Positions 10,864 through 44,917 of a stretch of DNA of 64,000 nt are shown piece after piece (position 1 is the stretch's first letter; each line of letters begins with the position of its first letter). The DNA is taken from the NCBI GenBank assembly GCA_028277405.1, contig JANQGH010000055.1, forward strand, positions 1 through 64,000, written 5' to 3'. The stretch comes from Alphaproteobacteria bacterium. Its GTDB lineage: Bacteria; Pseudomonadota; Alphaproteobacteria; DSM-16000; Inquilinaceae. The position numbers and the translations under genes were made by a program. The notes under the pieces are model-generated. The model saw only the letters and a program-made list of their open reading frames with translations, had not been told where the DNA came from and made no database searches.

Positions 10864-11338
10864 GAAAGGCCCTGATGATTTGGGTGACGAGGATCGGTGG
10901 ACCGATCCCAGGGTTTGGCGTGTCGGCGGACCATAAACAAACGGGGCGGGTATCGAAATCCCGACGATTGACGCGTCCTGTCTGACGGGCAGAGTTCCCT
11001 GCGGGGAGAACTGGCGGATCGCGCATTGTGTTCTTGAGCCGACGGCCAGGCGGGGGAGCTGTGCCGCCTGGTTTGGCCTTGCAATGAATGCGCGCCGGCT
11101 CGCGTTTGCGTTGCGCAAACACGGTTCGCTTATCACGTCGTTCATGAAGAATCCGTGTCGACTGTTTCTTAAGTGGTTTGAGTGACTGGCGCCGCTCATG
11201 AAAATTAGTATCGAAACCACTCAATATTGACCCTAGAGAGCGCTCGGGGGCGCCTCTAGTCTGGCACCATAAGCTCTTCAAGAGTCATCTGTGGCAAGCA
11301 AAAGGTTCGATCAACGAGCCATGCCCAAGGAGGATGTC
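10864..11338. promoter_or_regulatory. Divergent intergenic control region (475 bp)
   Basis: No gene is supported here; open frames on the minus strand are low-complexity. It holds an inverted repeat AGTGGTTT (11172-11179) / AAACCACT (11214-11221) and a hairpin with arms starting CTAGAG (11233) and ending CTCTAG (11259). Either could be an operator for the divergent aldolase gene and the CUT2 transporter operon. A strong AAGGAGG ribosome site at 11328-11334 marks the transporter start. Confidence 0.4.
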
Positions 11339-26507: not shown

Positions 26508-26541
26508 ATTGGTGCTTTCCGCATATGCCGCGAAGGTCTCA

Positions 26542-27342: not shown

Positions 27343-27354
27343 CGATCGCCGGTC

Positions 27355-28020: not shown

Positions 28021-28021
28021 G

Positions 28022-28702: not shown

Positions 28703-28720
28703 CAGGAACGGTTCCTAGAG

Positions 28721-28750
28721 GGCGGGCGCCGAGCCATCCCAGCGCCCGCC
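28721..28750 (-). terminator. Intercistronic hairpin after the binding-protein gene
   Basis: GGCGGGCGC (28721-28729) pairs perfectly with GCGCCCGCC (28742-28750) round a 12-base loop, with no T tract. It occupies the gap between the binding-protein and permease genes. Confidence 0.6.
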
Positions 28751-28764
28751 ACGTGGCTGGCCCG

Positions 28765-29607: not shown

Positions 29608-29659
29608 GTCGCCTCTCCCGTGTTCGTTGCTCCGACCCGTTGAAGACGTCAGAGTATCC

Positions 29660-29681
29660 GATTGTCAGATTGTCAACAATC
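29660..29681. promoter_or_regulatory. Likely GntR operator and promoter for the amino-acid ABC operon
   Basis: GATTGTCA occurs twice in tandem (29660-29667 and 29668-29675). The second copy runs into ACAATC to make the palindrome GATTGTCAACAATC (29668-29681). Its core fits the TNGT(N)AC(N)A pattern of FCD-type GntR operators. On the minus strand it overlaps a TTGACA -35-like hexamer, so binding would block transcription. Confidence 0.55.
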
Positions 29682-29786
29682 CTATTATCGGGTGCGGCTA
29701 AGTGAGTCTGCGGTCGGCCGGTTGTCGATTGCGGGCCTACTGTCAGGGAGCCTGGGCCGGCGATGACGCGTCAGCCGCCCCCGCAA

Positions 29787-29984
29787 TCACTCCTTGTCGT
29801 CAGGCGTCTTGTATTTGCCACTCAAGAAGAAGTCGTAGGCGCCATAGGCCGTGATCGCGCCGAACAGGAACATCCACAACTGCTCGCCGAAGAAGATGAC
29901 CTCGGCGGCGAAGGCGCCGGCGGCAATTGCCAGACAGATCACCCGACGGTAGAGCGGACGAAACCAGTCGTCATTGGCGGCCAT
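29787..29984 (-). CDS. Small membrane protein, unknown function
   Basis: A 65-aa protein from the ATG at 29984, preceded by AGGGAA. Two hydrophobic stretches (about 15-30 and 32-50) are followed by a charged tail ending KTPDDKE. A longer form starting at a TTG at 30038 would begin inside a hairpin and is less likely. I do not recognise the family; coding is supported by the membrane pattern and ribosome site only. Confidence 0.5.
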   Translation of the reverse strand: MAANDDWFRPLYRRVICLAIAAGAFAAEVIFFGEQLWMFLFGAITAYGAYDFFLSGKYKTPDDKE

Positions 29985-30006
29985 TCGGTCGGGTTCCCTG
30001 CTGAAG

Positions 30007-30040
30007 TTTTGCCGGCTACCGCCTCTCAATACCGGCAAAA
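30007..30040. other. Inverted repeat between the ATP-grasp gene and the small membrane protein
   Basis: TTTTGCCGG (30007-30015) and CCGGCAAAA (30032-30040) form a perfect 9-bp stem with a 16-base loop. The A/T run is inside the stem, not after it, so it is not a classic terminator for the minus strand. It could be a processing or regulatory hairpin. Confidence 0.4.
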
Positions 30041-30106
30041 GATAGGATCGCCAAGCCGATTGGCCGGCGCTCGTCGGTGCATCGATGAAGGAGCGCTAGA
30101 TGGGCA

Positions 30107-31099
30107 TCAGGCGGCCGCCGCAACCTTTGGCGCCGTGCCATACGCGTCGTTCAGCAATCCGCCGAGATAGTCGGCAATGGCGCCCATGCCGCTTCGCCCG
30201 TCCTTGGCTTCGGCGTCGGGATTGTAGTTGGTGTTGGTATTGACGTCGTAGGTGTAGGCGCGACCGTCGGCATCCTCGATGAACTCGATACCGGCGATGT
30301 CGATGCCGTTCTTGGCCAGGAAGGCCTGCCAGGCCGGCACCAGCGGGTGCTGGAAGTCTGGAATGATCTGGAATTTGTCGGCGGGCGCCACGGCAGGGCA
30401 GACACTGTCATCGTCGTCGATCTGGCAGACATCGGCGGGGCAGAGCTCAAAGCCTTCCGAGGTGTCGACGCGCACGGCATAGACGAGGCGGCCGCCGACG
30501 AACTCGACCCGGGTGATGTAAGGCGAGGGCGCCTCTATGTAGCGCTGGACCAGGGTGATGCCGTCGATCGACTCCTCGAAGTCGGGGCTCGCCAGATGTT
30601 GCTCCAGCGCTTCTGCAGACAGCAGCAGGCGCACGCCGAGGCCCTTGCCGGCGCGGTTGTGCTTCAGGATGATCGGATAGCCGATCTTTTGCGCGGCATC
30701 GGCGATGTGTTCCTTACCAATGACGGCCGCGGTGTCAGGTGTCTCGATGCCGAACGACTTCAGCGCCTCGTACTGGCCGACCTTGGTGACTTCTAGCTGA
30801 ACCGCGCGCTCGCCGTTGATCACCGTGCGGCCGTGCCGGGTCAGCCAGGCCAGGACAGCGGCCGTGAATTCAGGCGCATAACGATGGCCGCGCGTATGCG
30901 ACGACGCGCTGATCCGGTTGTAGAAGACGCCCTCCGGCGGCGGCCGCGTGAGATCAAGCGCGCCCCGGTGCAGAAACCATTCGGTGAACGGCACGTTCCG
31001 CGCCGCGAACTCCCGCCGCAACGGCGCCACCCAATCGTCGTTCTCATGGATGACGAAAACGCGGGGCGCGGCCCCGGCCGCATAGGTCTCAAGCATCAT
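30107..31099 (-). CDS. ATP-grasp ligase, RimK-like
   Basis: A 330-aa enzyme expected to join a carboxylate to an amine with ATP. The ATP-grasp core starts about residue 110 (YEALKSFGIETPDT), with the ATP-binding Lys in YPIILKHNRAGKGLGV and Mg ligands in GIEFIEDADGRAYTYDVNTNTNYN. The ATG at 31099 follows GGAGAG; one codon later is a second ATG. RimK-like ligases add glutamate or make small peptides. It sits behind a GntR gene and near peptide import and hydrolysis genes, so a peptide-like product or substrate is plausible. Confidence 0.82.
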   Translation of the reverse strand: MMLETYAAGAAPRVFVIHENDDWVAPLRREFAARNVPFTEWFLHRGALDLTRPPPEGVFYNRISASSHTRGHRYAPEFTAAVLAWLTRHGRTVINGERAVQLEVTKVGQYEALKSFGIETPDTAAVIGKEHIADAAQKIGYPIILKHNRAGKGLGVRLLLSAEALEQHLASPDFEESIDGITLVQRYIEAPSPYITRVEFVGGRLVYAVRVDTSEGFELCPADVCQIDDDDSVCPAVAPADKFQIIPDFQHPLVPAWQAFLAKNGIDIAGIEFIEDADGRAYTYDVNTNTNYNPDAEAKDGRSGMGAIADYLGGLLNDAYGTAPKVAAAA

Positions 31100-31129
31100 G
31101 ACGCGATCTCTCCAAACGCGCCGGAACAT

Positions 31130-31179
31130 CGGATCAGCCGGCGCTGATCCGAATATAGGGTAAAAATTTTCTAAGTTAA
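31130..31179 (-). promoter_or_regulatory. Promoter with palindrome at the start site, upstream of the ATP-grasp gene
   Basis: On the minus strand, TTAACT (31179-31174), a 16-base spacer and TATATT (31157-31152) form a likely promoter. Directly downstream, CGGATCAGC (31130-31138) and GCTGATCCG (31143-31151) make a 9-bp inverted repeat with a 4-base loop, covering the expected transcription start. An operator for a repressor is the simplest reading. Confidence 0.5.
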
Positions 31180-31250
31180 TGGCGATTGCTGCGCCGGATT
31201 CGTGATTTCATCCTGCTATTCGGCGCCTGGTTAGAAGATAATGCCATGCC

Positions 31251-31958
31251 CTAGCTGAGTTTCCACTGATGCCGGTCCAGCCATTCGTTGGGCTCATAAT
31301 GGGCAATGTGATTGGCGACCAGGCGACGCATAAAGGGCCGATCGCGCCGCTCGATCGCTTTCACCATCAGCAAATGCTCGTCCGCCGCATTGCGGACGCG
31401 AGCTTCGGACGTCCAGATCTTCTGCACGGGCACCGGCACGCTACGCCGCAGATCCATGATCGACCGGACAAGCTCGCGATTGGTGCAGAGCTCCAGCATG
31501 GCGCCGTGAAAGGCCAGGTTGGCGTTGTTCTGATCGATACGATCGCCCTTGTTGATCGCGATGTTGAACGCCTCCGCCAGGTCCCCAAGTTCGTAGACCG
31601 AGGCGGGCGTGGCCCGGTCGATGATGTCATCGACGGCCGCGACCTCCAGGATCACGCGCACCTCGGCCACGTCGCGCAGCCGCCGTTCGTTGAACTCACT
31701 GACATAGTAGCCGCGGTTGGGGATGCGGTGGACCAGGCGGCGGGCGGTCAAGCTCTCCAACGCCTGGCGTACATCGATCCGCGAACAGCCATACCGCTTT
31801 TCGAGATTGATCTGCTTCAGCCAACTGCCGGTAACCAACAGGCCGGCGTTGATGTCGGCCTCGATGCGACTGGCGATCTCCTCCGCCTTTCCGCCTTTGG
31901 TCGATTGCGGTGGCCGCTCGGCCGCCTGCGCATGAACCGTGGTCACCTTGTCGCTCAC
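31251..31958 (-). CDS. GntR-family regulator, FCD type
   Basis: A 235-aa regulator with a winged helix (about 45-80: INLEKRYGCSRIDVRQALES) and an FCD domain (LAFHGAMLELCTNRELV...). The GTG at 31958 follows GAGGGGG. It is divergent from the alpha/beta hydrolase with a 159-bp A/T-rich gap, and lies upstream of the ATP-grasp gene. It probably controls both directions. Confidence 0.86.
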   Translation of the reverse strand: MSDKVTTVHAQAAERPPQSTKGGKAEEIASRIEADINAGLLVTGSWLKQINLEKRYGCSRIDVRQALESLTARRLVHRIPNRGYYVSEFNERRLRDVAEVRVILEVAAVDDIIDRATPASVYELGDLAEAFNIAINKGDRIDQNNANLAFHGAMLELCTNRELVRSIMDLRRSVPVPVQKIWTSEARVRNAADEHLLMVKAIERRDRPFMRRLVANHIAHYEPNEWLDRHQWKLS

Positions 31959-32117
31959 CGCCCCCTCGCTTCCACGATCTCGCCGGTCAACCGAGCGCCT
32001 ATCGCTGCGCCGGCGACAATCCGACGAGACGGATTGCCAAAATTATTCGAAAAATGGCGCCAATTTGATAGTCTCGAAGTATCGAAATTATCAGCGACAA
32101 TCAAGGTTGATCAGAAA

Positions 32118-32951
32118 ATGTCTCAACTGACGGTCAATGGTGCCCAACTCACCTATCAGGTCGCCGGGCCTGAGAACGCGCCGTTGATCGTCGTCCTGCA
32201 TGGCGGCCGAGGGATCGGCGACCACCGGTCCGAGTTCGAGGCCTATCGGCCCCTGACCGACCGTTTCCGGTTGGTCGGCTTCGACCAGCGGGGCTGCGGC
32301 CGGTCATCCCTGACGCCGCCATTCACGTTCGCGCAGTTGGCTGATGACGTCGATGGCGTGCGCCAGGCCTTCGCTGGTGACGCGCCGATGATCCTGATCG
32401 GCGGGTCATTCGGCGGCATGATCGCGCTCACCTATGCACTGGCGTATCCGAACGGCCTGTCGCATCTGATCCTGCGCGGCGCCGCGCCGAGCCACGATCA
32501 GGAGATCGAGGCGATCGCCAACTTCAAGGCGCGGCTGCACAAGGCGCCGAACGCCTCTATCGATATGATCGACAAGCTTTTTTCCGACCGGGTCACCGAC
32601 GATATCGAACTGCAACTGATCTGGTTTGCGCTCCAGCCGCTCTACTATGAGCGCTTCGATCCCGACGCGGCGTTGGCCGCGACGCGCCGCCTGTCATGCC
32701 ACGCCGAAACCCACAACGCGCTCTATCGCAACAAGGACCAGTATGACGTGCGCGGGCGTCTGGGAGAGATCGGTGTGCCGACCCTGGCGATCGTCGGTTC
32801 GCAGGACTGGATTTGCCCGCCCAGCCAGTCGATTGCGATCGCCGACGGCATCCCGAGCGCCGAGCTCTTCATCGTCGAAGGCTGCAACCATGCCGTGCAT
32901 CTCGAAGCCAATGATCAGGTCCTGGCACGCATTCGCGCGTTTCTGGGCTGA
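32118..32951 (+). CDS. Alpha/beta hydrolase, proline-iminopeptidase-like
   Basis: A 277-aa hydrolase. The oxyanion motif is HGGRGIGD, with GFDQRGCGRSS after it as in prolyl iminopeptidases. The nucleophile Ser is in GGSFGG, the acid in GSQDWICPP and the His in CNHAVHLE. The ATG at 32118 was chosen because homology begins there, although the frame is open from 31269. Family members cleave N-terminal residues, esters or lactones. It stands next to a peptide importer, so a peptide-like substrate fits. Confidence 0.82.
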   Translation: MSQLTVNGAQLTYQVAGPENAPLIVVLHGGRGIGDHRSEFEAYRPLTDRFRLVGFDQRGCGRSSLTPPFTFAQLADDVDGVRQAFAGDAPMILIGGSFGGMIALTYALAYPNGLSHLILRGAAPSHDQEIEAIANFKARLHKAPNASIDMIDKLFSDRVTDDIELQLIWFALQPLYYERFDPDAALAATRRLSCHAETHNALYRNKDQYDVRGRLGEIGVPTLAIVGSQDWICPPSQSIAIADGIPSAELFIVEGCNHAVHLEANDQVLARIRAFLG

Positions 32952-33069
32952 TTGCCCTCGACACGCGCAAGTCTCCCACGGCCTTTACTTTCCGTACCAG
33001 TGCCGTAAATTGGCGCCATTATGAAGACGCTGGAGCGATTTGCTCGCGCATAACAGGGGGAGAGGGAAC

Positions 33070-34584
33070 ATGGGAGCCTTTCAAAACAGGCTGACGGCGG
33101 GGACCTGCCTTGTCGGGGCCTTGATGCTGTCTACCGCCGCGATGACCATTACAGCGGCCGCGCAAGATCTGACGGTCGCGCTGCCGACCAGCGTCAACAC
33201 GCTGGACCCGCACAACACGGCCACCGTCGGCACGGACCTCAGCGTCATCAGCCATCTCTACACGCCGCTGGTCATTCGCGGTCCGGACCTGGCCTTGCAG
33301 CCGGCCCTGGCGACGTCCTGGGAAGCCGTCGACGACCTCACCTGGCGCTTCGAGCTTCGGCCGGGCGTCACCTTCGTCAATGGCGAGCCGTTGGACGCCG
33401 AGGCGGTGCGGTGGAACATCGAGCGCGTTCTGGACCCGGACTTCAATGCCCGCGTCCAGTCCTGGTTCCGGCCGATCGAGGAAGTGCGCGTCATCGACGA
33501 CACGACCTTGGAGATCGTTACGAATGCACCGTATCCGGCACTGGCCGATCAGATGTCCAGTTTCTTCCTGCTGCCCCCGCAATGGACGGAGGCGCACAAC
33601 CCGGCCGCCGAGGCCTCGAGCTCCGGTCCTTACGAGCTGGTCGAGTTCGTCTCGGGCGACCGCATCGTACTGCAGGCCAATGACGACTATTGGGGCGAAG
33701 CGCCGCCGTTCCAGACGGTCGAGTTTCGGATGATGCCGGAGGACTCAAGCCGCATCGCCGCCCTGCTGGCGGACGAGGCGGACTTCGTCCAATACTTCCC
33801 GCCGTCGGAGATAGACCGCATCAACGAGAGCGGGCGTGCCGAAGCCTCGGCCATTTCCGGCATCCGCTTCATGCTGGTGAAGTTCAACAATCTGCGGCCG
33901 CCGTTCCAGGATAATCCGGACCTGCGCATGGCGATCAACTACGCCATCGACCGCCAGGGGATTATCGACTCGCTGTTCAACGGCCTGGGCGACATCGCCA
34001 ACTGCCAGGCCCTGTCGCCGGCCTATTTCGGCTACAACGCCGAACTTGAGCCGGCGCCTTACGATCCGCAACGGGCGCGCGAACTGCTGGCGTCGGCCGG
34101 CTATCCGGATGGGTTGGAACTGGACCTTGAGGTGCCGCTCGGCCGCTATGTCCAGGCGCAGGAGATCGCCCAGGTGATCGCCGCCATGCTGGCCGAAATC
34201 GGCGTCGACGTGAACATCATCGAGATGGAGTTCGGCGCCTGGCTCGACAAATACCGCAATGCCGGCGACCTCGGCGACATGTCCTATCTCGGACAGGCCT
34301 GGCCGACCCTGGATGCGGACGGGCTGCTGACCCTGTTCGAGCCCGGCAACGCCTATGCCTATTACGAGAACGAGCAGTTCGGCGAGCTTATCCGCGAGGC
34401 GCGCTCGATAACCGATCGCGATCGGCGGCAGGATCTCTATCGCGAGGCCACCCAGGTCATGTGCGAGGACCCGCCGCATGTGCCGATGTTCTTCCAGCCG
34501 ACCACGTACGCCGTTTCCAATGACATCGAATGGCAGGTCAGGCCGGACGACTGGGTGCGCGCCTTCGATATGGCGCCGCGCTAG
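33070..34584 (+). CDS. Dipeptide/oligopeptide-type ABC importer substrate-binding protein
   Basis: A 504-aa family 5 binding protein (DppA/OppA type). A signal peptide spans about residues 1-35 (ALMLSTAAMTITAAA). Family landmarks are LDPHNTATVGTDL, WEAVDDLTWRFELRPGVTF and AINYAIDRQGI. The ATG at 33070 follows GGGGGAGAGGG. It starts the operon running to 39598. Members bind peptides, nickel, glutathione or opines; the exact ligand is unknown. Confidence 0.9.
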   Translation: MGAFQNRLTAGTCLVGALMLSTAAMTITAAAQDLTVALPTSVNTLDPHNTATVGTDLSVISHLYTPLVIRGPDLALQPALATSWEAVDDLTWRFELRPGVTFVNGEPLDAEAVRWNIERVLDPDFNARVQSWFRPIEEVRVIDDTTLEIVTNAPYPALADQMSSFFLLPPQWTEAHNPAAEASSSGPYELVEFVSGDRIVLQANDDYWGEAPPFQTVEFRMMPEDSSRIAALLADEADFVQYFPPSEIDRINESGRAEASAISGIRFMLVKFNNLRPPFQDNPDLRMAINYAIDRQGIIDSLFNGLGDIANCQALSPAYFGYNAELEPAPYDPQRARELLASAGYPDGLELDLEVPLGRYVQAQEIAQVIAAMLAEIGVDVNIIEMEFGAWLDKYRNAGDLGDMSYLGQAWPTLDADGLLTLFEPGNAYAYYENEQFGELIREARSITDRDRRQDLYREATQVMCEDPPHVPMFFQPTTYAVSNDIEWQVRPDDWVRAFDMAPR

Positions 34585-34599
34585 CGCCGTTGGCTTAGC

Positions 34600-34632
34600 G
34601 CGGGCCCGATTTCAGGCATGAAGCGGGCCCGC
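34600..34632 (+). terminator. Intercistronic hairpin after the binding-protein gene
   Basis: GCGGGCCCG (34600-34608) pairs with CGGGCCCGC (34624-34632) with a 15-base loop and no T tract. It lies between the binding protein and the first permease, 54 bases before the permease start. Confidence 0.55.
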
Positions 34633-34685
34633 CTAACCCATTGTCTATCGTTGCAGAAGGGGCGGGCGGAATTGGTCGATAGATC

Positions 34686-35606
34686 ATGAGCGGCTACTTC
34701 GCCGGCCGCTTGCTGGAGTCGCTGGTCGCCATTCTTGGCGTCCTGACGATCGTCTTCATTGCGGCCAGACTGACCGGTGACCCGGCGGTTCTGCTGCTGC
34801 CGATCAGCGCCACCGACGCCGACATCGCCCGCATGCGGCAGGAACTTGGGCTCGACCGGCCTCTGCTGGAGCAGTATCTGGCGTTTCTGGCCGATGTCCT
34901 GCGGGGCGATTTCGGCGTCTCCTTCGAACACCACCGGCCCGCCATGCAGGTGGTTTTGGAGCGCCTGCCGGCGACCTTCGAACTTGCCGGCGTTGCTCTT
35001 CTGATCGGTGCCGCCGTGGGCATCGCCGCCGGCCTGGTCGCGGCGCTGGCACGGGGCACGGTGCTTGAGTTGATCGCCATGGGCGTAGCGCTGATCGGCC
35101 AGGCGACGCCGATTTTCTGGCTTGGCATCGTCTTGATCCTGGTCTTCGCTGTGGAACTGCAATGGCTGCCCGCGGGCGGAAGGGGCGGGCTGGACCACAT
35201 CATCCTGCCGGCCATCACGCTGGCGACCTTCACCACGGCCAGCATCGCGCGCCTCTTGCGCTCCAGCATGATCGAGGTGCTGAAGGAAGACTATATCCGC
35301 ACCGCCTGGGCCAAGGGTCTGGTGCCGCGCATCGTCTATCTGCGGCACGCCGCGCGCAACGCGCTGATCCCGGTCATCACGATGATCGGCATTCTGGCCG
35401 GCGAGCTGTTCAGCGGTGCCGTCGTGACCGAAACCATCTTCTCCTGGCCCGGCGTCGGCCGCGTGGTGGTGCAGGCGATCGAAACCAAGGACTTCGCCGT
35501 CGTGCAGGCCGGCGTCACGGTCATCTCGGTCATCTTCATCGGTTTCAATCTGCTGGTTGACCTGCTCTATGGCCTGGTCGATCCGCGTATCCGGATCGCC
35601 TCATGA
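34686..35606 (+). CDS. Dipeptide-type ABC importer permease (DppB type)
   Basis: A 306-aa permease with about six spans. The N-terminal MSGYFAGRLLESLVAILGVL and the block GDPAVLLLPISATDADIARM are DppB-like, and the docking loop is IRTAWAKGLVPRIVYLRHAARN. It overlaps the DppC-type gene by 4 bases. Confidence 0.93.
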   Translation: MSGYFAGRLLESLVAILGVLTIVFIAARLTGDPAVLLLPISATDADIARMRQELGLDRPLLEQYLAFLADVLRGDFGVSFEHHRPAMQVVLERLPATFELAGVALLIGAAVGIAAGLVAALARGTVLELIAMGVALIGQATPIFWLGIVLILVFAVELQWLPAGGRGGLDHIILPAITLATFTTASIARLLRSSMIEVLKEDYIRTAWAKGLVPRIVYLRHAARNALIPVITMIGILAGELFSGAVVTETIFSWPGVGRVVVQAIETKDFAVVQAGVTVISVIFIGFNLLVDLLYGLVDPRIRIAS

Positions 35607-36457
35607 GGCGGCTTTGGCGGGCGATCCGGCGCAGCCCCAGCGGCCTGGTCGGCATCGTGCTGGTCGGCGTGTTCATCTTCACGGCGATCGCGGCCCCGCT
35701 GCTGGCGCCGATGGACCCGGTGGCGATCGATCTCGCCAACCGGCTGGGCGCGCCGACCTGGACCGTCGAAGGGCCGGGTGCGCATCCGCTGGGTGCCGAC
35801 CAGTTGGGCCGCGACATTCTCAGCCGCATCATCTGGGGCAGCCGCATCACCCTGGTGGTTGCGATCACCGCCGTGGTGATGAGCGGCGCGCTGGGCGTCT
35901 TGCTGGGCCTGCTGGCCGGTTTCCTGGGCGGCTGGACGGAACGTGTCATCATGCGGCTGGCCGATGTTCAGCTCTCCATCCCGTTGATGCTGTTCGCCCT
36001 GCTGATCATCGGCGCGCTGGGCCCCAGCCTGTTCAACCTGATCATCGTGCTGGCCCTGACCGGCTGGACCCGGTTTGCCCGCATCGTGCGCGGCGAAACC
36101 CTGTCCCTGCGTGAGCGCGAATTCGTCATGTCCGTGCGCGCGGCCGGCGCCACCGGCCTGCGCATCATGCTGCGGCACATCCTTCCTAACGTAATGACCG
36201 CCGCCATCGTGGTCGCGACCTTGGAGGTGGCGCGCGTCGTCATTCTGGAATCCGCGCTCAGCTTCCTCGGCATGGGGTTGCAGCCGCCGGAGGCAAGCTG
36301 GGGCCGGATGCTGGCGGAGGGCCGCGACTACATCGCCTCGGCCTGGTGGCTGGCGACCTTCCCGGGCGTAGCGATCCTGCTGGTGGTCCTGGGTGTGAAC
36401 TTGTTCGGCGACTGGCTGCGCGACTATTTCGATCCGAAACTGCAAGAGAACCGCTGA
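35603..36457 (+). CDS. Dipeptide-type ABC importer permease (DppC type)
   Basis: A 284-aa permease. The DppC landmark HPLGADQLGRDILSRIIWGSR is at about 56-76, and the docking loop is VRAAGATGLRIMLRHILPNV. It pairs with the DppB-type protein as the channel. The M24-family gene follows 27 bases downstream. Confidence 0.93.
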   Translation: MRRLWRAIRRSPSGLVGIVLVGVFIFTAIAAPLLAPMDPVAIDLANRLGAPTWTVEGPGAHPLGADQLGRDILSRIIWGSRITLVVAITAVVMSGALGVLLGLLAGFLGGWTERVIMRLADVQLSIPLMLFALLIIGALGPSLFNLIIVLALTGWTRFARIVRGETLSLREREFVMSVRAAGATGLRIMLRHILPNVMTAAIVVATLEVARVVILESALSFLGMGLQPPEASWGRMLAEGRDYIASAWWLATFPGVAILLVVLGVNLFGDWLRDYFDPKLQENR

Positions 36458-36484
36458 CCAGCAGCGGCCAAGGGGAACGCCACC

Positions 36485-37669
36485 ATGCACGATGCCGCGA
36501 TCGGCAAGGAACGGATCCAGCGCCTGCAAGATGCGTTAAAGGCGCGGGGCGTTGCCGCGATGATCTGCCTGAAGCCGGAGAACAGCTTTTATCTCAGCGG
36601 TTTCAACCCGATCATCTACAGCCATCCTGTCGTGGCGATCCTGCCGGCCGAGGGCGACCCGGTGGTGCTGGTCCATGCGCTGCGCGACGACCATGCCCGC
36701 GCGTCGGCCTGGGTCAAGGACATTTGCCTTTACGGCGCCTGGTCGACCAAGAAGACGATGGGGCCGAACTGGCTGTCCGCCTTGCACGAGATCCTGAAGG
36801 AACGCGGCGTTGCCGATGGTGTGCTGGGCATCGAAGAAGACTATCTGCCGCTGACCAAGATGCGCCAGTTTGAGAGCGAGTTCACCGGCGCCTCCTTCGC
36901 CAACATCTCCGATGCGATCGCCGAGGCCAGGCTGGTCAAGGAACCCTACGAGATCGACTGCGCGCGCAAGGCGGCGGATATCGCGGATGTCGGCATGGAT
37001 GCGGCCATCGCCTGCCTGGCCGCCGGCGGCAGTGAGCGGGAGGTCTCGCTGGCCGCCATGTCGGCCATGAACCGGCACTGGTCACGGCACTATCCCGATA
37101 TCGAGGTGTGCGATTTCGGCAGCCTGGAGGGTGGCTTCCACAATGGCCTTGCCTGCTGGACCATGATCGGCGACCGGGTCGCGACCAATGCCGACAACCC
37201 GACTGACCGGCGCGCGCAGCCGGGGGAGATCGTGGTCATTTTCATCTGGGCGGTCTGCAACGGCATCCATGCCGAAAATGAACGCGCGGTGGCGGTCGGG
37301 CCCTTACCGGATGAGCGCAAGCGCGCCTACGAGACGATCCTGGAGATCCGCGAAATCACAGCGCCGTTGATGCGGCCTGGAACGGCGGTCGCCGATTTCT
37401 TTCGGGCCGCGGCGGCCGAATACGACCGGCTTGGCTACAAGGCGAACACGCCGGGCCGCATCGGTCACGGCATGGGGCTGGGCGCGCACGAGGCCCCCTC
37501 GCTGGACGAACGGTCGTCGGCCACCCTTCAGGCCAACATGCTGATCAGTTTCGAGCCCAATCTCCGCATCCCGCCTTGGGGCGGCGTTCAGCATTCCGAC
37601 ACGGTGCTGATCACGGAGACGGGCCATGAGTTCCTGACCAGCACCGACAACGGTTTCCTACAGGTCTGA
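36485..37669 (+). CDS. M24-family (creatinase/Xaa-Pro peptidase fold) hydrolase lacking metal ligands
   Basis: A 394-aa protein with an N-terminal creatinase domain (1-150) and a pita-bread catalytic domain. Against the five metal ligands of M24 peptidases (Asp, Asp, His, Glu, Glu) it shows Phe253, Glu264, His328 (GHGMGLGAHEAP), Glu357 (SFEPNL) and Ser371. Three of five are changed, which suggests a metal-independent enzyme such as creatinase or ectoine hydrolase. It lies between the permease and ATPase genes of a dipeptide-type importer, so it should act on the imported compound, probably cleaving a C-N bond. Confidence 0.82.
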   Translation: MHDAAIGKERIQRLQDALKARGVAAMICLKPENSFYLSGFNPIIYSHPVVAILPAEGDPVVLVHALRDDHARASAWVKDICLYGAWSTKKTMGPNWLSALHEILKERGVADGVLGIEEDYLPLTKMRQFESEFTGASFANISDAIAEARLVKEPYEIDCARKAADIADVGMDAAIACLAAGGSEREVSLAAMSAMNRHWSRHYPDIEVCDFGSLEGGFHNGLACWTMIGDRVATNADNPTDRRAQPGEIVVIFIWAVCNGIHAENERAVAVGPLPDERKRAYETILEIREITAPLMRPGTAVADFFRAAAAEYDRLGYKANTPGRIGHGMGLGAHEAPSLDERSSATLQANMLISFEPNLRIPPWGGVQHSDTVLITETGHEFLTSTDNGFLQV

Positions 37670-37682
37670 GGGACGCTCACGC

Positions 37683-38681
37683 ATGTCGCCGATCCTGGAA
37701 GTCGACGGTCTGACGGTGGTCTTCGACACCGATGAGGGCGTCGTGCACGCCGTCTCGGACGTCAGCTACGATCTCCAGGTCGGCGAAACCCTGGGCGTCG
37801 TCGGCGAAAGCGGCAGCGGCAAGAGCGTGCATGTGCTGGCCATGCTGGGCCTGGTGCCGATGCCGCCGGGCCGGATCGTCAGCGGGTCGGTCCGCTTCGA
37901 CGGCAAGGAACTGCTCGGCCTGAACAGGCGCGACCTGCGCGCCATCCGCGGCCGCGATATCGGCTTCATCTTCCAGGACCCGATGACCTCGCTGAACCCG
38001 GTCCTGTCGATCGGCCGGCAGATGACCGAGGGGCTGGAGCAGCATTTGGGCATGTCCCACGGCCAGGCGCTGCGCCGCGCGGCGGAACTGATCGATCTGG
38101 TCAAGATCCCGCAGCCGGAACGGCGCTTGCGGCAGTATCCGCACGAGCTGTCGGGCGGCATGCGCCAAAGGGTGATGATCGCCATGGCGCTGGCCTGCGA
38201 ACCGAAACTGCTGATCGCCGACGAGCCGACCACGGCGCTCGATGTCACCATCCAGGCCGAGATCATCGCGCTGGTGAACGATCTGAAGGAACGATTGGGT
38301 ACCGCGATCATCTGGATCACCCACGATCTCGGCGTCGTGGCGGGCATCGCCGACACGGTCCAGGTGATGTATGCCGGCCGGCTGCTCGAACGCGGGCCGA
38401 TCGATGCGGTGTTCGAGGACCCGCGCAGCGCCTATACGCTCGGCCTGCTGCGCTCGCTGCCACAGGCGGCCGGTACCGGACTGGTACCGATCGAGGGCGC
38501 GCCGCCGGATCTGCGCCATTTGCCCGAAGGCGATCCGTTCGCGCCGCGCAATCCGTACGCGACGCCGCGCTGCCATCGCGAAACGCCGCCGCTGCGCCAG
38601 GCCGACGCCTCGGTCGACGGTCATCTGGTCGCGGCATGGTACGACCTGCGGCAGATAGATGCGCCGGGGCCACCCAAATGA
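37683..38681 (+). CDS. Dipeptide-type ABC importer ATPase (DppD type)
   Basis: A 332-aa ATPase with Walker [10 protein letters not shown], signature [15 protein letters not shown], Walker [14 protein letters not shown] and switch His in [11 protein letters not shown]. The C-terminal Dpp extension [16 protein letters not shown] normally carries the Cys of an iron-sulphur cluster; only one Cys is visible there. It overlaps the DppF-type gene by 4 bases. Confidence 0.93.
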
Positions 38682-39598
38682 CCGCCAGCCCACAATCGCT
38701 GTTGCAGGTGCGTAACCTGGTCAAGAGCTACGCCGCGCGGCGCGGCTTCGTGCGCACGCGCGCGGTGACGGGCCCGGCGGTGAACGATGTCAGCTTTGAG
38801 ATCAGGCGCGGCGAGACGCTGGGCCTGGTGGGGGAGTCCGGCAGCGGAAAGAGCACCATCGGCCGGGCCGTCACCATGCTGTCGCCGCCGGATGAGGGGG
38901 CGGTTGCGTTCGACGGCGTCGACCTGACTGAACTGTCGGCGCGCCGGCTGAGGCGGATCAGGAAGCGGTTTCAGGTCGTCTTTCAGGACCCCTATGCCTC
39001 GCTCAGCCCGCGCATGCGTGTCGGCGAGTTCATCGGCGAACCGCTGCGCATCCACAAGGTCGGCCGGTCGCGCGCCGAAATCGCCGATCGGGTGGCCGAA
39101 CTGCTGACCATGGTCGGTCTCGATCCGGCCTTCGCCAAACGCTACCCGCATCAGTTTTCCGGTGGCCAGCGCCAGCGCCTGTGCATCGCCCGGGCGATCG
39201 CCTTGAACCCGGACTTCATTGTGGCCGACGAGCCGATCTCGGCGCTGGACGTCTCGATCCAGGCGCAAGTCATCACGCTGTTACAGTCGCTTCAGCGCGA
39301 TCTCAATCTCACCTACCTCTTCATCTCGCACGATCTCAGCATCGTGCGTCACATCTGCCATCGCACGGCCGTGCTCTATCGCGGGCGCATCGTCGAACTG
39401 GCGCCGACCGAGCTGTTGTTCACCGACGCGCGCCACCCCTATACCAAGGTGCTTTTGTCGGCCGTGCCGATTCCGAACCCGAAGCGGGAACGGGCGCGGC
39501 GCCATCTTCTGATGGACCCGAACTTCGACTATTCGGAACCGGATTCATCGCTGGTCGAGGTGGCGCCCGACCATTGGCTGGCCGCTGGGCGCGCCTGA
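38678..39598 (+). CDS. Dipeptide-type ABC importer ATPase (DppF type)
   Basis: A 306-aa ATPase with Walker [10 protein letters not shown], signature [15 protein letters not shown], Walker [14 protein letters not shown] and switch His in FISHDLSIV. The ATG at 38678 overlaps the DppD-type stop (ATGA). It forms the ATPase heterodimer with that protein. Confidence 0.93.
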
Positions 39599-39625
39599 CT
39601 CGATTAACCGAGGGGGGACCTGATC

Positions 39626-40231
39626 TTGCCCGAAAAGCCCGTCATCCAAGCCTTCTACGGCATGTCGTCGCCTTGGGCCTATCTCGGCGCCCCGCGCCTC
39701 TTCGAGATTGCCGACCGCCATGGTGCGGACCTGGTGCTGCGGCCGATCCGGATTATCCAGCCGAACGGCGGCATTCCGCTGCGCACCCGCCCCATTCCCC
39801 GCCAAGTCTACCACGCGGTGGAATTGGCGCGCTGGCGCGATTTTCTCGGCACCAAACTGAACCTGAAGCCGAAGCACTACCCCTGCCGGTCGATCGAACC
39901 GGCCGCCCATGCGGTGATCGCGGCTGCCCAGGCCGGGCTGGACGCGAGAACCTTCAGCTACTCGATCCAGCGAGGCCTGTGGGCTGAGGATCGCGATATT
40001 GCGGATACGGAGGTCTTGCGGGCACTGGCCTTGCGCGACCTTGGGCAAGAGGGCGCCGCTCTTGTCCGCGATCCGCAACCGTCTGCGATTACGGAGGTCT
40101 TCCAGCACAATCTTGCCGACGCCGAGGCCATCGGCATCTTCGGCACGCCGACCTACGTCTTCAGGGACGAGTTGTTCTGGGGCCAGGATCGCCTCGATTT
40201 CCTGGATCGAGCCCTCGCCGCGGCGACGTAG
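39626..40231 (+). CDS. DsbA-fold isomerase, 2-hydroxychromene-2-carboxylate isomerase-like
   Basis: A 201-aa kappa-class-GST/HCCA-isomerase-like protein. The active-site motif FYGMSSPWAYLG has Ser where DsbA has CxxC, and the cis-Pro region is FGTPTYVFRDELFWGQDRLDF. The TTG at 39626 follows GAGGGGGG. Known relatives isomerise aromatic-ring cleavage products with glutathione. It is 27 bases after the DppF-type gene and may be the last gene of that operon; its role there is unclear. Confidence 0.8.
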   Translation: MPEKPVIQAFYGMSSPWAYLGAPRLFEIADRHGADLVLRPIRIIQPNGGIPLRTRPIPRQVYHAVELARWRDFLGTKLNLKPKHYPCRSIEPAAHAVIAAAQAGLDARTFSYSIQRGLWAEDRDIADTEVLRALALRDLGQEGAALVRDPQPSAITEVFQHNLADAEAIGIFGTPTYVFRDELFWGQDRLDFLDRALAAAT

Positions 40232-40285
40232 AACCCGTTCGTCAGCCTCGGTGCTAGCCTCGATCGAGTCGACCGAGCATATGGC

Positions 40286-40331
40286 TTGATCCTAAATGTA
40301 CTGTTTGGTACATTATGTACTGAACAGTACA
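40286..40331. promoter_or_regulatory. Promoter and 35-bp near-palindromic operator (likely TetR site)
   Basis: From 40297 to 40331 a 35-base sequence reads the same on both strands except at two pairs and the centre. Outer arms are TGTACTGTT and AACAGTACA; inner arms are GTACAT and ATGTAC. A -35-like TTGATC (40286-40291) and, 17 bases on, TACATT (40309-40314) overlap it. A TetR regulator gene lies 0.5 kb downstream and is the natural candidate to bind here. Confidence 0.7.
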
Positions 40332-40346
40332 AAAGGGAGGGTAGTC

Positions 40347-40820
40347 ATGTCTGTAGCGCAGTCCGCTGACGCCGGTGAGAACGGCGCGTTTCCCTTCGAC
40401 CGGTCGCCGGAGAGCTTCACGCTCGACGCTGAAACCGACATCCGCAACCGACACGGCGCGTTCAGCTGGTCGGAGTTGGTAACCAAGGATCCCGAGGCCG
40501 CCGCCGACTACTACACCAAGCTGTTCGGCTGGCAGTATCACAGCTTCGACATGAACGGCGCGCTCTACCGGGTCATCACGATCAACGGCCACGGTGTCGG
40601 TGGCATCAGGGCGCCCATGCCCGGCGAGCCGGACGAGACGCGTTGGCTGACCTTTGTTTCAGTGAAGGACATCGAGGCCGTGGCGTCCGGCATCGAAGCC
40701 GCCGGCGGCACCGTGACCGTTCCCGTCACCGAACTTCCGGGCATCGGCAAGATGGCCGGCATGATCGACCCGGTCGGCGGGCAGACCTACGCCTTTGAGT
40801 ATGACAAGCCGTTCTTCTAA
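40347..40820 (+). CDS. VOC-superfamily (glyoxalase-like) protein
   Basis: A 157-aa protein with one VOC repeat pair: WSELVTKDPEAAADYYTKLFGW at about 37-58 and GMIDPVGGQTYAFEY near the end. This subfamily (PF00903-like, YP-family) often lacks a known reaction. The ATG at 40347 follows AAGGGAGGG. It sits directly behind the palindromic operator and before the TetR gene, and is probably its regulatory target. Confidence 0.82.
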   Translation: MSVAQSADAGENGAFPFDRSPESFTLDAETDIRNRHGAFSWSELVTKDPEAAADYYTKLFGWQYHSFDMNGALYRVITINGHGVGGIRAPMPGEPDETRWLTFVSVKDIEAVASGIEAAGGTVTVPVTELPGIGKMAGMIDPVGGQTYAFEYDKPFF

Positions 40821-40857
40821 TCTCGGGTGATTCTCTTGGAACAAGCCCGATGGGCGA

Positions 40858-41451
40858 ATGGCAAGACGGCGACAGGGCGAAGAAACGCGCACCCGCATTA
40901 TCGAGGCTGCGGCCGACCTGTTTCACCGGGATGGCATCCACGCCGTCAGCGTCGATGACGTTCTAGCGGCCTCCGGCACCGGCAAGAGCCAGATGTACCA
41001 CTACTTCCGTTCCAAGGATGATCTGGTTCTGGCCGTTGCCGAGCGGCTGAGGGACGGGGCTAGGGGCAGTCCGCTGGCCCAACCGATCAGTTCGTGGGAG
41101 GGCGTCGAGGCTTGGCTGCGCGTCCACATCACCGCCATGGCCGGGTGCGACTTCGCCCGCGGTTGCCCGGTCGGCACGCTCGCCTATGCCCGACCGGAAG
41201 ACCATGAAGCGCTGCGCGGGCTTGTCGCCGCCACCTACGACATCCAACGCGGCCCGTTGATTGCGTTCTTCGAGAGCCGGCTGGCCAAGATCGACAATCC
41301 GACGTGGAATGCTGACGCGCTCGCCACGCTGTGTCTGGCCACGATTCAGGGCTCCATGATCTTGGCCCGCAACGACGGTGGCCCCACGGCGATGGAACAA
41401 TCGATCGACGGCCTGATGCGGCTGCTAAAGCACGCTCTGGGCGACGATTAG
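40858..41451 (+). CDS. TetR-family transcriptional regulator
   Basis: A 197-aa regulator with a typical N-terminal helix-turn-helix (TRTRIIEAAADLFHRDGIHAVSVDDVLAASG, about 10-40, ending SQMYHYFRSKDDL). The C-terminal domain (from residue 60) resembles the group with GCPVGTLA. It lies 37 bases after the VOC gene, likely cotranscribed, so both respond to the same operator. Its stop overlaps the ABC-F stop on the other strand by 4 bases. Confidence 0.88.
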   Translation: MARRRQGEETRTRIIEAAADLFHRDGIHAVSVDDVLAASGTGKSQMYHYFRSKDDLVLAVAERLRDGARGSPLAQPISSWEGVEAWLRVHITAMAGCDFARGCPVGTLAYARPEDHEALRGLVAATYDIQRGPLIAFFESRLAKIDNPTWNADALATLCLATIQGSMILARNDGGPTAMEQSIDGLMRLLKHALGDD

Positions 41452-43028
41452 AGTTCGATCACGCGCTCAATGCCGATGGCGTCGAGGAAGTCCCGGTCGT
41501 GGCTGACGACCAGCAGGGCACCGTCATAGTCGACGAGGGCGGCCTCGATGGCGGCGATCGACTCCAGATCCAGATGGTTGGTCGGTTCATCCAGGATCAG
41601 CAACTGCGGCGGTGCCGGGCCGCCAAGGGTGCAGGCCAAAGCGGCGCGCAGCGTTTCGCCGCCGCTGAGCTGTCCGACGGGCACCTCCGCCGCCTCGGCG
41701 CGGAACAGGAAGCGGGCGAGCACCGCTCGGCCCGCGTTCTTGCCCGCCGCCGGATGCAGGCGGGCGAAGTTCTCGACGATCGTCTCGTCGGGGTGCAGCA
41801 GGGCTGCCTTCTGGTCGAGCATCGCGGCGCCGACGAACCGGCGAACGGTGCCGGCGGACGGGGCCAGCTCCCCGCCGGCCAGCTTGATCAGGGTTGTCTT
41901 GCCGACACCATTCGGCCCGGTGACCGCGATGCGCTCGGGCCCGACGATCGTGAACGACAGATCCGACAGTACCGCCTTACCGCCCGGCGTTTGCCAATGA
42001 AGATGGTCAAACCCCAGGACCATTTTCCCGGCAGATAAGTCGGCCGAGGGCAGCGCGAGTCTCAGGTGTCGCAGCCGCTCGACGGCGCGGCGTTTTTCGG
42101 CCAGGTTTTCGTCCGCCTGCTGGCGAAGCCGATCGCTGACAACGTGCTGGCGCCCGTGGCTGCTTTCGCTGCGCTCTTTGCGGCCGTCGTAGAGCGACTT
42201 CCCATGGCTGCGGCTCGCCCGGCCGCGTTTGCCGCTGGCATCGCGCTTTTGTTTGCGTTCGCGTGCCTGCTGCAGCGAGCGTTCGAGCTGTTTCGTGGCG
42301 CGTTCCGCGCTGGCCAGCTCGCGCTCGGCGGTCTCGCGTTCGTGGTCCCTTTGCGCTTTGTAGACATCCCAATTGCCGCCATAGATCCGGGCGCCGAGCG
42401 ACGACAGCTCAACGATCCGGTCCATGCAGCGCAACAGGGCCCGGTCGTGGCTGATGACGATGGCGCCGCCGCGCCAGTCGCCGAGAATCCGCGTGACCAA
42501 GTCTCGGGCGCCGGCATCGAGATTGTTCGTCGGCTCGTCCAGGACCAGCGTGTCGGGCGCATCCAGCAGCAGCCCGGCCAGCGACAGCCGCGTCACCTCG
42601 CCACCACTAAGCGCGCTTAGGGGTTGGCGCAGGTCGAGATCGTTGAGGCCGGTGGCGGCCAGCGCTTCGGCAATGCGGGTCTCCAGCGCCCAGTCCGCCT
42701 GGGCCAGGTCGTCCTCGCTCGCCTGACCATCTGCGATGCGGTCGAGCCGGGCCAGGCCATCGGCGATGCCCATCTGGTCGGCGACGGTCGCACCGGGCGA
42801 GGGGCGAACCTCCTGGCTGAGAACCCCGATGCGACCCTGTCGGTGCACATGGCCGGATTGGGGCTGGATCTCGCCCAGCAGCAGCTTCAGCAGGGTGGTT
42901 TTGCCGACGCCGTTGCGGCCGATCAGGCCGGTGCGTTCAGCCCCGAAGGAAAGGGTGAGGTCGGTAAAAAGCGAACGGCCGTCAGGCGTTTGATATCCGA
43001 GATTCTCGGCCAGCAAAAAGGCAGACAT
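41448..43028 (-). CDS. ABC-F family ATPase (duplicated ATP-binding cassettes)
   Basis: A 526-aa soluble protein without membrane parts. Two cassettes carry Walker A GRNGVGKTT and GPNGVGKTT, signatures LSGGEVTRL and LSGGETLRA, and Walker B VLDEPTNNLD and ILDEPTNHLD. A charged coiled-coil linker (about 205-315) joins them. ABC-F proteins act on the ribosome, either as translation factors or in antibiotic protection; the subgroup cannot be settled by eye. It is divergent from the SOS operon with a 215-bp gap. Confidence 0.9.
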   Translation of the reverse strand: MSAFLLAENLGYQTPDGRSLFTDLTLSFGAERTGLIGRNGVGKTTLLKLLLGEIQPQSGHVHRQGRIGVLSQEVRPSPGATVADQMGIADGLARLDRIADGQASEDDLAQADWALETRIAEALAATGLNDLDLRQPLSALSGGEVTRLSLAGLLLDAPDTLVLDEPTNNLDAGARDLVTRILGDWRGGAIVISHDRALLRCMDRIVELSSLGARIYGGNWDVYKAQRDHERETAERELASAERATKQLERSLQQARERKQKRDASGKRGRASRSHGKSLYDGRKERSESSHGRQHVVSDRLRQQADENLAEKRRAVERLRHLRLALPSADLSAGKMVLGFDHLHWQTPGGKAVLSDLSFTIVGPERIAVTGPNGVGKTTLIKLAGGELAPSAGTVRRFVGAAMLDQKAALLHPDETIVENFARLHPAAGKNAGRAVLARFLFRAEAAEVPVGQLSGGETLRAALACTLGGPAPPQLLILDEPTNHLDLESIAAIEAALVDYDGALLVVSHDRDFLDAIGIERVIEL

Positions 43029-43207
43029 GGAACAGCACCAGATGAAGATGAGACGGAGAGTGGCGCGTGGTCGTCATCTTTCTCATCGGTGTCTCCTGGG
43101 GTGCCTTCCGGTCTGCGGTAGGGCAGGAGATAAGGGACGGCGTCTGGGTCCGCAAGGCGTTTTCGCGCCTGACCTGGTTGGCTGTGGGTTCCGCCGATTC
43201 ATTTCTC

Positions 43208-43243
43208 TTGCATTTGTTCCTGTTTTGTTCTTACACTCGTTTC
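43208..43243 (+). promoter_or_regulatory. SOS promoter with LexA box
   Basis: TTGCAT (43208-43213), an 18-base spacer and TACACT (43232-43237) make the promoter. Inside it lies GTTC (43216-43219), 7 bases, GTTC (43227-43230), the direct-repeat LexA box of alphaproteobacteria. The ATG of the next gene at 43244 is only 7 bases after the -10 element, where transcription should start, so the mRNA is probably leaderless. Confidence 0.8.
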
Positions 43244-44005
43244 ATGCAATACACCCTCTCCATCGGGGCGGCCGCGCCCACGATCACCATCCATCGCCGG
43301 CTGTTGGCTGCCTTCGGTGCGCCGTTGCCGCCGCTTCGGCTGGACCCGCTCAGCCAGCTTGTCTTGGCGCTAATCAACGTGCGTACGCGTGACGAGGTCG
43401 CGCGTGCTGCCTTTGCCGGCCTCGCCTTGAAGTTCCGGTCTTGGGATCGGCTGCAACATGCCGCGCCTGACGTGATCGAACCGATCATCGACCGGGTGAC
43501 GTTTCCGGAAAAGAAGGCCGTGACCTTGCCGGCGGCGCTGCGTGCGATCACCGCCCGGCGCGGTCGTCTGACGCTTGATTTCCTCGATGAATTGCCCACC
43601 GATGCGGCCCGGGCCTGGCTAACCGACATTCCGGGTGTGGGGCCTAAAATCAGCGCCTCGGTGCTTAATTTCAGCACCTTGCAGCGGCGCGCGCTGGTCG
43701 TGGACACCCATTGTAAGCGGGTTGCCAAGCGCTTGCGGCTGGTTCCGCGTCCCGCCAATGACGAGAAGGTATCGGCCCTTCTGGACGGTCAGATGCCTTC
43801 GATCTGGACGGCCGAGGATATTTTTGACCATCACCGGCTGCTGAAGCAGCTGGGTCAGACTTATTGTACCGCGACCACGCCGTCTTGCCGGTCGTGCCCT
43901 TTGCGCTCTCTTTGCCCGACAGGTCAGGCGCGCTGGGCGGCGCCGGCCAAGCGACTATCTGACGACCGGTTTGCGGAGCCGGTTATGGCGGTTTCTTCTC
44001 TATGA
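43244..44005 (+). CDS. Endonuclease III-like HhH-GPD DNA glycosylase with 4Fe-4S cluster
   Basis: A 253-aa base-excision enzyme. The helix-hairpin-helix reads IPGVGPKISASVLN with catalytic Lys135; the catalytic Asp is 154 (VVDTH). Cluster ligands are Cys208, 215, 218 and 224, with the exact C-X6-C-X2-C-X5-C spacing of endonuclease III. It differs from ordinary Nth elsewhere in sequence. I chose ATG 43244 because homology starts there and the promoter leaves no room for more. It is the first gene of the SOS operon with imuA 9 bases downstream. Confidence 0.85.
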   Translation: MQYTLSIGAAAPTITIHRRLLAAFGAPLPPLRLDPLSQLVLALINVRTRDEVARAAFAGLALKFRSWDRLQHAAPDVIEPIIDRVTFPEKKAVTLPAALRAITARRGRLTLDFLDELPTDAARAWLTDIPGVGPKISASVLNFSTLQRRALVVDTHCKRVAKRLRLVPRPANDEKVSALLDGQMPSIWTAEDIFDHHRLLKQLGQTYCTATTPSCRSCPLRSLCPTGQARWAAPAKRLSDDRFAEPVMAVSSL

Positions 44006-44014
44006 GCACACATA

Positions 44015-44917
44015 ATGACCATACCTCTCGACTCGCTTTCCCCCTTTCCGCATGGCCCGCCCGTTAAGCTCTTCTGGCGGCGCGCGGCGCTGACCGATTT
44101 GCGCCGCAAGGTCGCCGCCATCGAGGGCCGGCCGCCGCAATACGACAATGTCCGACATGCCTTGCCAGACAAGGCCGTTCCAATAACCGAGGCCGGCTCC
44201 CCGATCTGGCGGTTCGGTGTCGAGGCCATCGACGGGGCCTTGCCGGACGGGCGCCTGGCCAACACCGGCCTGCATGACATCACCGCCGATGCTTACGGCG
44301 ACGGGCCGGCGGCGGTCGGCTTTTGCCTGGCCCTGCTGCGTCGTCTTCAGGCCACGTCGGCGGGGACGGGCGCGGTTCTGTGGTGCGAAAACGCGCAAGC
44401 GGCGCGGGAATTCGGCGGGCTCTACGGGCCTGGCCTGGCCGCGCTGGGCATCGATCCGGCCCGTCTGGTCCTGGTCACCGTCGGCCGCGACAAGGAGGTG
44501 TTGTGGGCGATGGAGGAAGGGTTGCGCGCCGCCACGCTGACCGCCGTCATCGGCGAGGTCACCACCGCCGACTTCACCGCCAGCCGCCGCCTGTCGCTGG
44601 CCTGTGCGGACAGCGCAACGCCCGCCCTGCTGCTGCGTCATCACCGCGACACCACCACCAGTGCGGCCCGCACCCGCTGGCGCGTGGCCGCCCGGCCGGG
44701 CGTGGCGGATGACTGGGATGCGCGGGCGCCGGGCCGGCCGCGCTGGTCTTTGGAACTGACCCGCTGCCGGGGCGGCCGGCCAGGGTCCTGGCATGTGGAG
44801 TGGAACGATGCGACGGGTGATTTCCGTCTGGCTGCCCCACTGGCCGATCGAACGGCTGCGCCGCAGCCGGCGCCGGTCCGGGCCTGGGGCGGGCCGCACC
44901 TCCGGCGCGCCGGCTGA
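44015..44917 (+). CDS. imuA: ImuA, RecA-like SOS mutagenesis protein
   Basis: A 300-aa protein of the ImuA/SulA-related group, needed with ImuB and DnaE2 for damage-induced mutagenesis. Typical parts are IDGALPDGRLANTGLHDI, VLWCENAQAAREFGGLYGPGL and the C-terminal WHVEWNDATGDFRLAAPL. Its last 110 bases overlap imuB in another frame, as is usual for this cassette. It is under the LexA-controlled promoter at 43208. Confidence 0.9.
   Translation: MTIPLDSLSPFPHGPPVKLFWRRAALTDLRRKVAAIEGRPPQYDNVRHALPDKAVPITEAGSPIWRFGVEAIDGALPDGRLANTGLHDITADAYGDGPAAVGFCLALLRRLQATSAGTGAVLWCENAQAAREFGGLYGPGLAALGIDPARLVLVTVGRDKEVLWAMEEGLRAATLTAVIGEVTTADFTASRRLSLACADSATPALLLRHHRDTTTSAARTRWRVAARPGVADDWDARAPGRPRWSLELTRCRGGRPGSWHVEWNDATGDFRLAAPLADRTAAPQPAPVRAWGGPHLRRAG

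Follow-up and report, generated by a model that had tools for sequence, protein, structure and literature searches.

Does a gene with a peptidase fold, placed inside a peptide-importer operon, still encode a peptidase when its product departs from the metal-ligand set of its class? The question is raised by an open reading frame in the window, the 64,000-nucleotide stretch of alphaproteobacterial DNA analysed here (Table 1). Its ATG is preceded by a plausible ribosome-binding stretch (AAGGGG), and its 394-amino-acid product carries Creatinase_N and Peptidase_M24 domains well above the Pfam cut-offs (Peptidase_M24, 1.6e-32). The ligand set of M24 metallopeptidases (D, D, H, E, E) is absent from this protein, which reads F, E, H, E, S. 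Aligned to Pfu prolidase (1pv9), whose metal ligands we take to be D209, D220, H284, E313 and E327, the corresponding columns are F253, E264, H328, E357 and S371. The first-pass annotation had described Phe253, Glu264 and Ser371 as replacements and His328 and Glu357 as retained, and this was confirmed by the prolidase alignment and found to be fixed in relatives. It had also asked whether the ligands might be shifted rather than missing; this was ruled out, as the blocks around all five columns align to prolidase without gaps. No conserved acid takes over column 253 or 371 in 40 relatives, and the ligands are replaced, not shifted. Also lost, and not on the earlier list, is the catalytic His that prolidase and creatinase share, the position being A236 here and A, C, S or T across the family, and the adjoining Asp237 is invariant in the family. 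The protein is an uncharacterised M24 variant, and its active-site residues make the annotation of its relatives as Xaa-Pro peptidases doubtful.

Table 1. The M24 gene, the importer operon and flanking genes in the window
Feature	Coordinates	Strand	Basis or remark
RimK-like ATP-grasp gene	30107-31129	-	flanks operon
GntR/FCD regulator, divergent, possible local regulator	31251..31958	-	Pfam; related ORF in 2/40 loci
Alpha/beta hydrolase, proline-iminopeptidase-like, start uncertain	32124..32951	+	Abhydrolase_1; TIGR01250 below cut-off
Periplasmic solute-binding protein (SBP_bac_5); alternative start 33040	33070..34584	+	Pfam
Importer permease, DppB/GsiC/NikB type	34686..35606	+	domain/family models
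Importer permease, DppC/GsiD/NikC type	35603..36457	+	domain/family models
M24/creatinase-fold protein, metal-ligand columns F253/E264/H328/E357/S371	36485..37669	+	Pfam, alignment, predicted structure
Importer ATPase, DppD/OppD type	37683..38681	+	domain/family models
Importer ATPase, DppF/OppF/GsiA-C-terminal type; alternative start 38636	38681..39598	+	domain/family models
DsbA-fold gene	39626-40231	+	flanks operon
Glyoxalase-fold gene	40296-40820	+	flanks operon

To assess how far the altered active site is shared, we compared 40 relatives, comprising four plasmid copies (nine plasmid records matched, five were fetched and four used) and 36 copies found by scanning the genomes of 84,980 species with two exact peptide patterns, which makes 36 a lower bound. 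All 40 were 51-68% identical to the query (plasmid records, 51.9-56.8%; species-scan copies, 52-68%). Residues E264, E266, R267, H328, H335, E357, S371, D372 and D237 were kept in every relative, and column 253 was hydrophobic (F/L/M/V) in 39 and D in one (L042); the ligand replacement is therefore a fixed family trait. In the 27-row alignment, all nine chosen active-site columns, each polar or charged, were invariant, compared with 73 of 394 columns overall (hypergeometric 1.7e-7, for columns picked after looking), and the replacement pattern is due neither to chance nor to sequencing error. A distant M24 protein (L062, 22% identity) was set aside and not counted with the 40; of the family residues it has just the metal-ligand His and a single Glu nearby. 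Plasmid pNgVX of N. galegae VafX2 (L005:8959-10100) was excluded from the relatives because its M24 copy matches in two pieces; this copy is also annotated short, and is therefore taken to be broken or mis-sequenced near its 5' end.

The structure predicted for the M24 protein from a 27-row alignment, which drew on 26 of the 40 relatives, had a mean pLDDT of 89.8. Creatinases held the first three ranks in VIA-align (Z = 41.2, 41.0 and 40.9), followed by the ectoine hydrolase DoeA (38.8) and prolidases (38.5 and below), while structures of the DMSP lyase DddP scored about 30 (rows 43, 46-48). Foldseek, ordered by E-value, placed prolidases ahead of creatinases, and the sequence search likewise ranked prolidases first (best match, Xaa-Pro dipeptidase 1pv9, E = 3.6e-31); within a single fold, Z gaps of a few units should not be over-read. 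The protein scored far below the cut-offs of the curated models for DoeA (TIGR02993, 53 bits against 613; NF038259, 78 bits against 575) and for the Xaa-Pro dipeptidase PepQ (NF040821, 119 bits against 630). The likeness to creatinase or ectoine hydrolase that had been read from the letters was thus upheld in so far as creatinases, ahead of DoeA, top the VIA-align comparison; the Foldseek order favours prolidases, however, and identity with either enzyme was not upheld, as counterparts of creatinase His232 and His376 are absent and the DoeA scores fall short.

In a tree of 52 rows that included 13 of the 40 relatives, the M24 family came out as a single clade with 100/100 support, its stem being 1.1 changes per column long. 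Closest to it, at weak support (83/58), was a group made up of the creatinases together with L082 and L010, and DoeA fell in another clade. A DoeA ortholog was ruled out by the curated cut-offs, the residues and the tree. Among 36 other M24 proteins compared, two carried the E/H/E/S set, one in the window's own genome (L068) and one in another genome (L008). Both share with the M24 protein the Glu in the second-Asp (D2) column, the creatinase-type Glu-Arg, the His, the Glu and the fifth-column Ser, but are about 30% identical to it or less and have kept the catalytic His; the loss of the dinuclear site may therefore predate the family, and the loss of the His may be its own mark. L068 and a further protein of the window's genome, L069 (contigs C94 and C87), resemble L008 in that their first Asp ligand is replaced and their second ligand column carries Glu; the fifth column is Ser in L068 and L008 and Ile in L069, and the catalytic His is present in all three, which are possibly further non-peptidases.

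The genomic setting of the gene was examined in the window and in the related loci. On the + strand, the alpha/beta hydrolase gene is followed by the SBP_bac_5 gene, two permease genes, the M24 gene and two oligo_HPY ATPase genes, so that SBP_bac_5, two BPD_transp_1 and two ABC_tran plus oligo_HPY proteins, the components of a peptide-type ABC importer, lie in one run. The M24 gene starts 27 bases after the stop of the second permease gene and stops 13 bases before the first ATPase gene. Its tie to the importer, proposed earlier from this position between permease and ATPase genes, held across loci: in 31 of the 33 loci with a downstream ATPase (window included), the M24 stop lies no more than 13 bases from, or overlaps, the next ATPase ORF. 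Identities between locus L027 and the window were 62% for the solute-binding protein, 74 and 69% for the permeases, 68% for the M24 protein and 73 and 65% for the ATPases, and ORFs matching the alpha/beta hydrolase frame at an E-value no higher than 1e-10 occurred in 34 of the 40 related loci, with the highest identity (66%) in Brenneria. Importer, M24 gene and upstream alpha/beta hydrolase gene are co-inherited. The RimK-like, DsbA-fold and glyoxalase-fold genes had no ORF match in the compared stretches of the 40 related loci and for that reason probably lie outside the system.

Neighbouring genes were counted over 41 loci (window included) from our own greedy choice of ORFs, clustered by single linkage at 38% identity and named from one or a few scanned members per cluster. 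Within the stretches compared, the solute-binding protein and the first permease were each found in 35 loci, the ATPases in 33 and the alpha/beta hydrolase in 32; the solute-binding cluster was not found in 6 of the 41 loci, and the count for the second permease (23/41) is a lower bound since long false starts hid it in several loci. Beyond the importer, a flavin monooxygenase occurred in 29 of the 41 loci, a LysR regulator and a BisC/TorA-type S/N-oxide reductase in 27 each, an AhpD-like protein in 26 and a CMD protein in 21, each of these five clusters being named from one Rhizobium cremeum member. Less frequent were a PLP enzyme near the Cds1 L-cysteine desulfhydrase model (9/41; 567 bits against a cut-off of 600 for each of two scanned), a URO-D protein (5/41; three scanned, one resembling methylcobalamin:CoM methyltransferases) and an opine-dehydrogenase-family gene (3/41; two scanned, and L026 by clustering), whose L027 member is nearest to 1bg6, N-(1-D-carboxylethyl)-L-norvaline dehydrogenase. 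These neighbours suggest amino-acid-derived, opine-like, partly sulfur-containing nutrients, as judged by gene company.

Individual loci carried further genes. In Sinorhizobium medicae (L001) and Paraburkholderia podalyriae (L058) a pair of small genes lies directly upstream of the M24 gene (L001:7768-8735 on plasmid pMl1; L058:2689-3806), where most other loci have a permease gene. The second gene of the pair carries Cucumopine_C (shown by a scan in L001 and by clustering in L058). The first genes form one cluster, whose L001 member is annotated DUF3830 on a weak match (E = 9.7e-5, 22.8 bits, under the cut-off). In appearance this is a split version of cucumopine synthase, which makes an opine, and it could be a clue to the ligand class. 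In Brenneria (L037:174-4239, minus strand), four genes lie upstream of the M24 importer cluster, transcribed in the order TctC, small gene, TctA, opine-dehydrogenase-family gene. A Chloroflexi MAG (L033) has a URO-D domain fused to MOSC directly after the M24 gene (11200-12714) and, ahead of the solute-binding gene, a member of the 6-APA acyltransferase (AAT) family.

None of the redox clusters was found in the window stretch compared (26001-46000). Elsewhere in the window's own genome (G000), contig C4 encodes a flavin monooxygenase 64% identical to the rhizobial one, in a cassette (L097:6345-14017) with LysR, GST and carbon-nitrogen hydrolase genes beside a TctABC-like transporter. The cassette resembles parts of the rhizobial M24 clusters, and contig C2 encodes a BisC-type protein (41% identity). 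The cysteine-desulfhydrase-like protein had own-genome matches of only 24-31%, and the L027 opine dehydrogenase had no match there in a search run without a positive control. A single pathway shared by all loci found no support, the redox genes being absent from the window; from this and from the six loci without a solute-binding cluster, the pathway context varies.

The family is rare and patchy. At E of 1e-50 or better, its profile matched 3 of 385 genomes sampled from the class, namely the window's own, G245, which is probably the same record as L029, and G094, which encodes the L082 protein placed among the creatinases in the tree. No ortholog was seen in 16 genomes of the same taxonomic family as the window, where no match exceeded 33% identity, and none of 54 viral stretches that matched a pattern encoded a relative. 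Alpha-, Beta- and Gammaproteobacteria all include carriers, as does a Chloroflexi bin (one contig), and some copies sit on large rhizobial plasmids. The tree joins Brenneria (gamma) and Paraburkholderia (beta) to Rhizobium CF080 (100/98) and places Gluconacetobacter with Falsirhodobacter (100/99); horizontal spread is the natural reading. Among the matches listed in a literature search, whose titles and opening lines of abstracts were read, nothing was recognised on this M24 family.

The reading that we favour, to which we give an even chance, is that a cytosolic pita-bread enzyme lacking a dinuclear metal centre hydrolyses a C-N bond of an imported amino-acid-like compound. We infer this from the fixation in 40 of 40 relatives, the confident model, the residues that coincide with those of creatinase and the co-inherited importer. 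A small anionic amino-acid-like ligand would enter the cytosol through the peptide-type ABC importer whose genes flank the M24 gene and meet an acid-rich, creatinase-like active site formed by Glu264, Glu266-Arg267, His328, His335, Glu357 and probably Asp237. There, Glu264, Glu266 and Glu357 together with His328 would polarise water and the scissile bond (an amide, an amidine or a cyclic equivalent), with Asp237 possibly acting as base in place of creatinase His232; the arginines R325, R231 and R67 are invariant and could bind a carboxylate. The alpha/beta hydrolase would act before or after the M24 enzyme, and the S/N-oxide reductase, flavin monooxygenase, cysteine-desulfhydrase-like and opine dehydrogenase neighbours suggest an opine-like nutrient that contains sulfur in some lineages. 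Against this reading stand the absence of His232 and His376, the persistence of three of the four His-side ligands, the first place of prolidases by sequence and Foldseek, and the variation in pathway context between loci.

The strongest rival, which we consider unlikely on present evidence, is a mononuclear metalloenzyme in which only the second ion has been lost and a single divalent ion is still bound by Glu264, His328 and Glu357. In M24 enzymes these three columns belong to the His-side site of the two-ion centre, and since the Asp-to-Glu264 change is conservative, three of its four ligands remain and one ion could be accommodated. All three residues are fixed in the 40 relatives, and the same E/H/E/S set recurs in L068 and L008, which retain the catalytic His; the fourth ligand, however, is Ser in every relative. 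Published work bears on both sides: the His-bound ion of E. coli PepQ is described as having shown the greater density (PMC4213023), and Mn and Mg are described as raising the activity of a creatinase, a point that also tells against the C-N hydrolase reading, yet that creatinase is described as retaining >80% of its activity in EDTA (PMC7568399). Creatinase 1chm keeps H324 and E358, and creatinase is not known as a metalloenzyme, which also counts against this rival. Of the metal-independent hydrolase proposed in the first-pass annotation, the loss of the five-ligand dinuclear site therefore stands, while metal independence is less certain, since E264, H328 and E357 could hold one ion; its observation was real and well described, and its interpretation somewhat over-interpreted.

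A lyase or isomerase, not a hydrolase, is improbable. The pita-bread fold does host lyases, DddP among them, and the opine dehydrogenase and PLP enzymes among the neighbours make non-hydrolytic chemistry possible, but DddP matches the model far less well than creatinase does (Z of 30 against 41) and the creatinase Glu-Arg pair is present. More improbable still is a non-catalytic ligand-binding or regulatory protein that kept the fold alone, as Spt16 did. In its favour, the protein has neither a full metal site nor the catalytic His; against it stand the invariance of nine active-site columns, all polar or charged, and the fixed place of the gene in an importer operon of catabolic type. The prolidase-first rankings and the Peptidase_M24 match would speak for an ordinary dipeptidase that depends on metal and whose ligands are displaced, but this is highly improbable given the gap-free ligand blocks and the lack of a conserved acid at column 253 or 371.

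Returning to the C-N hydrolase reading, we extend it only tentatively, and would sooner expect the extension to fail than to hold: the family may represent another way of dismantling the pita-bread site, unlike those of creatinase and ectoine hydrolase, in which the Glu264/Glu266 pair and Asp237 replace both the dinuclear metal and the creatinase His base. It may also supply a core hydrolase of an undescribed pathway for the import and breakdown of amino-acid derivatives that are opine-like and, in certain lineages, organosulfur compounds; this pathway would have spread among rhizobia, acetic-acid bacteria, Bordetella and Brenneria, and perhaps to Chloroflexi. With a fixed, distinct active site beside a dedicated importer, its function is approachable through what the solute-binding protein binds, and the family would reveal the frequency and the routes of the M24 fold's departures from metal catalysis.

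Compared with known systems, the importer resembles those of the Gsi, Dpp and Nik type in its SBP_bac_5 protein, two BPD permeases and two oligo_HPY ATPases, but the best listed NCBIfam equivalogs of all five importer proteins fall below their curated cut-offs. The Xaa-Pro dipeptidase 1pv9 shares with the M24 protein the His and one Glu ligand, and its H291 corresponds to H335, whereas three ligand columns and the catalytic His192 are replaced. DoeA/EutD (6twk) also has the M24 fold with a dismantled metal site, and as described in the literature it opens the ectoine ring in a pathway whose import and catabolic genes are clustered (PMC5924519, PMC3187862). The DoeA ortholog L072, assigned as such by a score above the TIGR02993 cut-off, differs in reading E/P/Y/M/T at the five columns, in keeping the catalytic His and in belonging to a separate clade. 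Creatinase (1chm), to our knowledge not known as a metalloenzyme, matches over the whole fold (VIA-align Z = 41.2, rmsd 3.0 over 373), and its dinuclear ligands are not intact either; its Glu262-Arg263 corresponds to E266-R267, kept in 40 of 40 relatives, its His324 to H328 and its Glu358 to E357. It is only 24% identical, however, and its His232, His376, Arg64 and Ala260 are replaced by A236, S371, H47 and Glu264 (the residue letters were verified; we presume catalytic roles for His232, Glu262-Arg263, Glu358, Arg64 and His376). On these comparisons the M24 protein is an ortholog of neither creatinase nor ectoine hydrolase, but a member of a separate family on a long branch.
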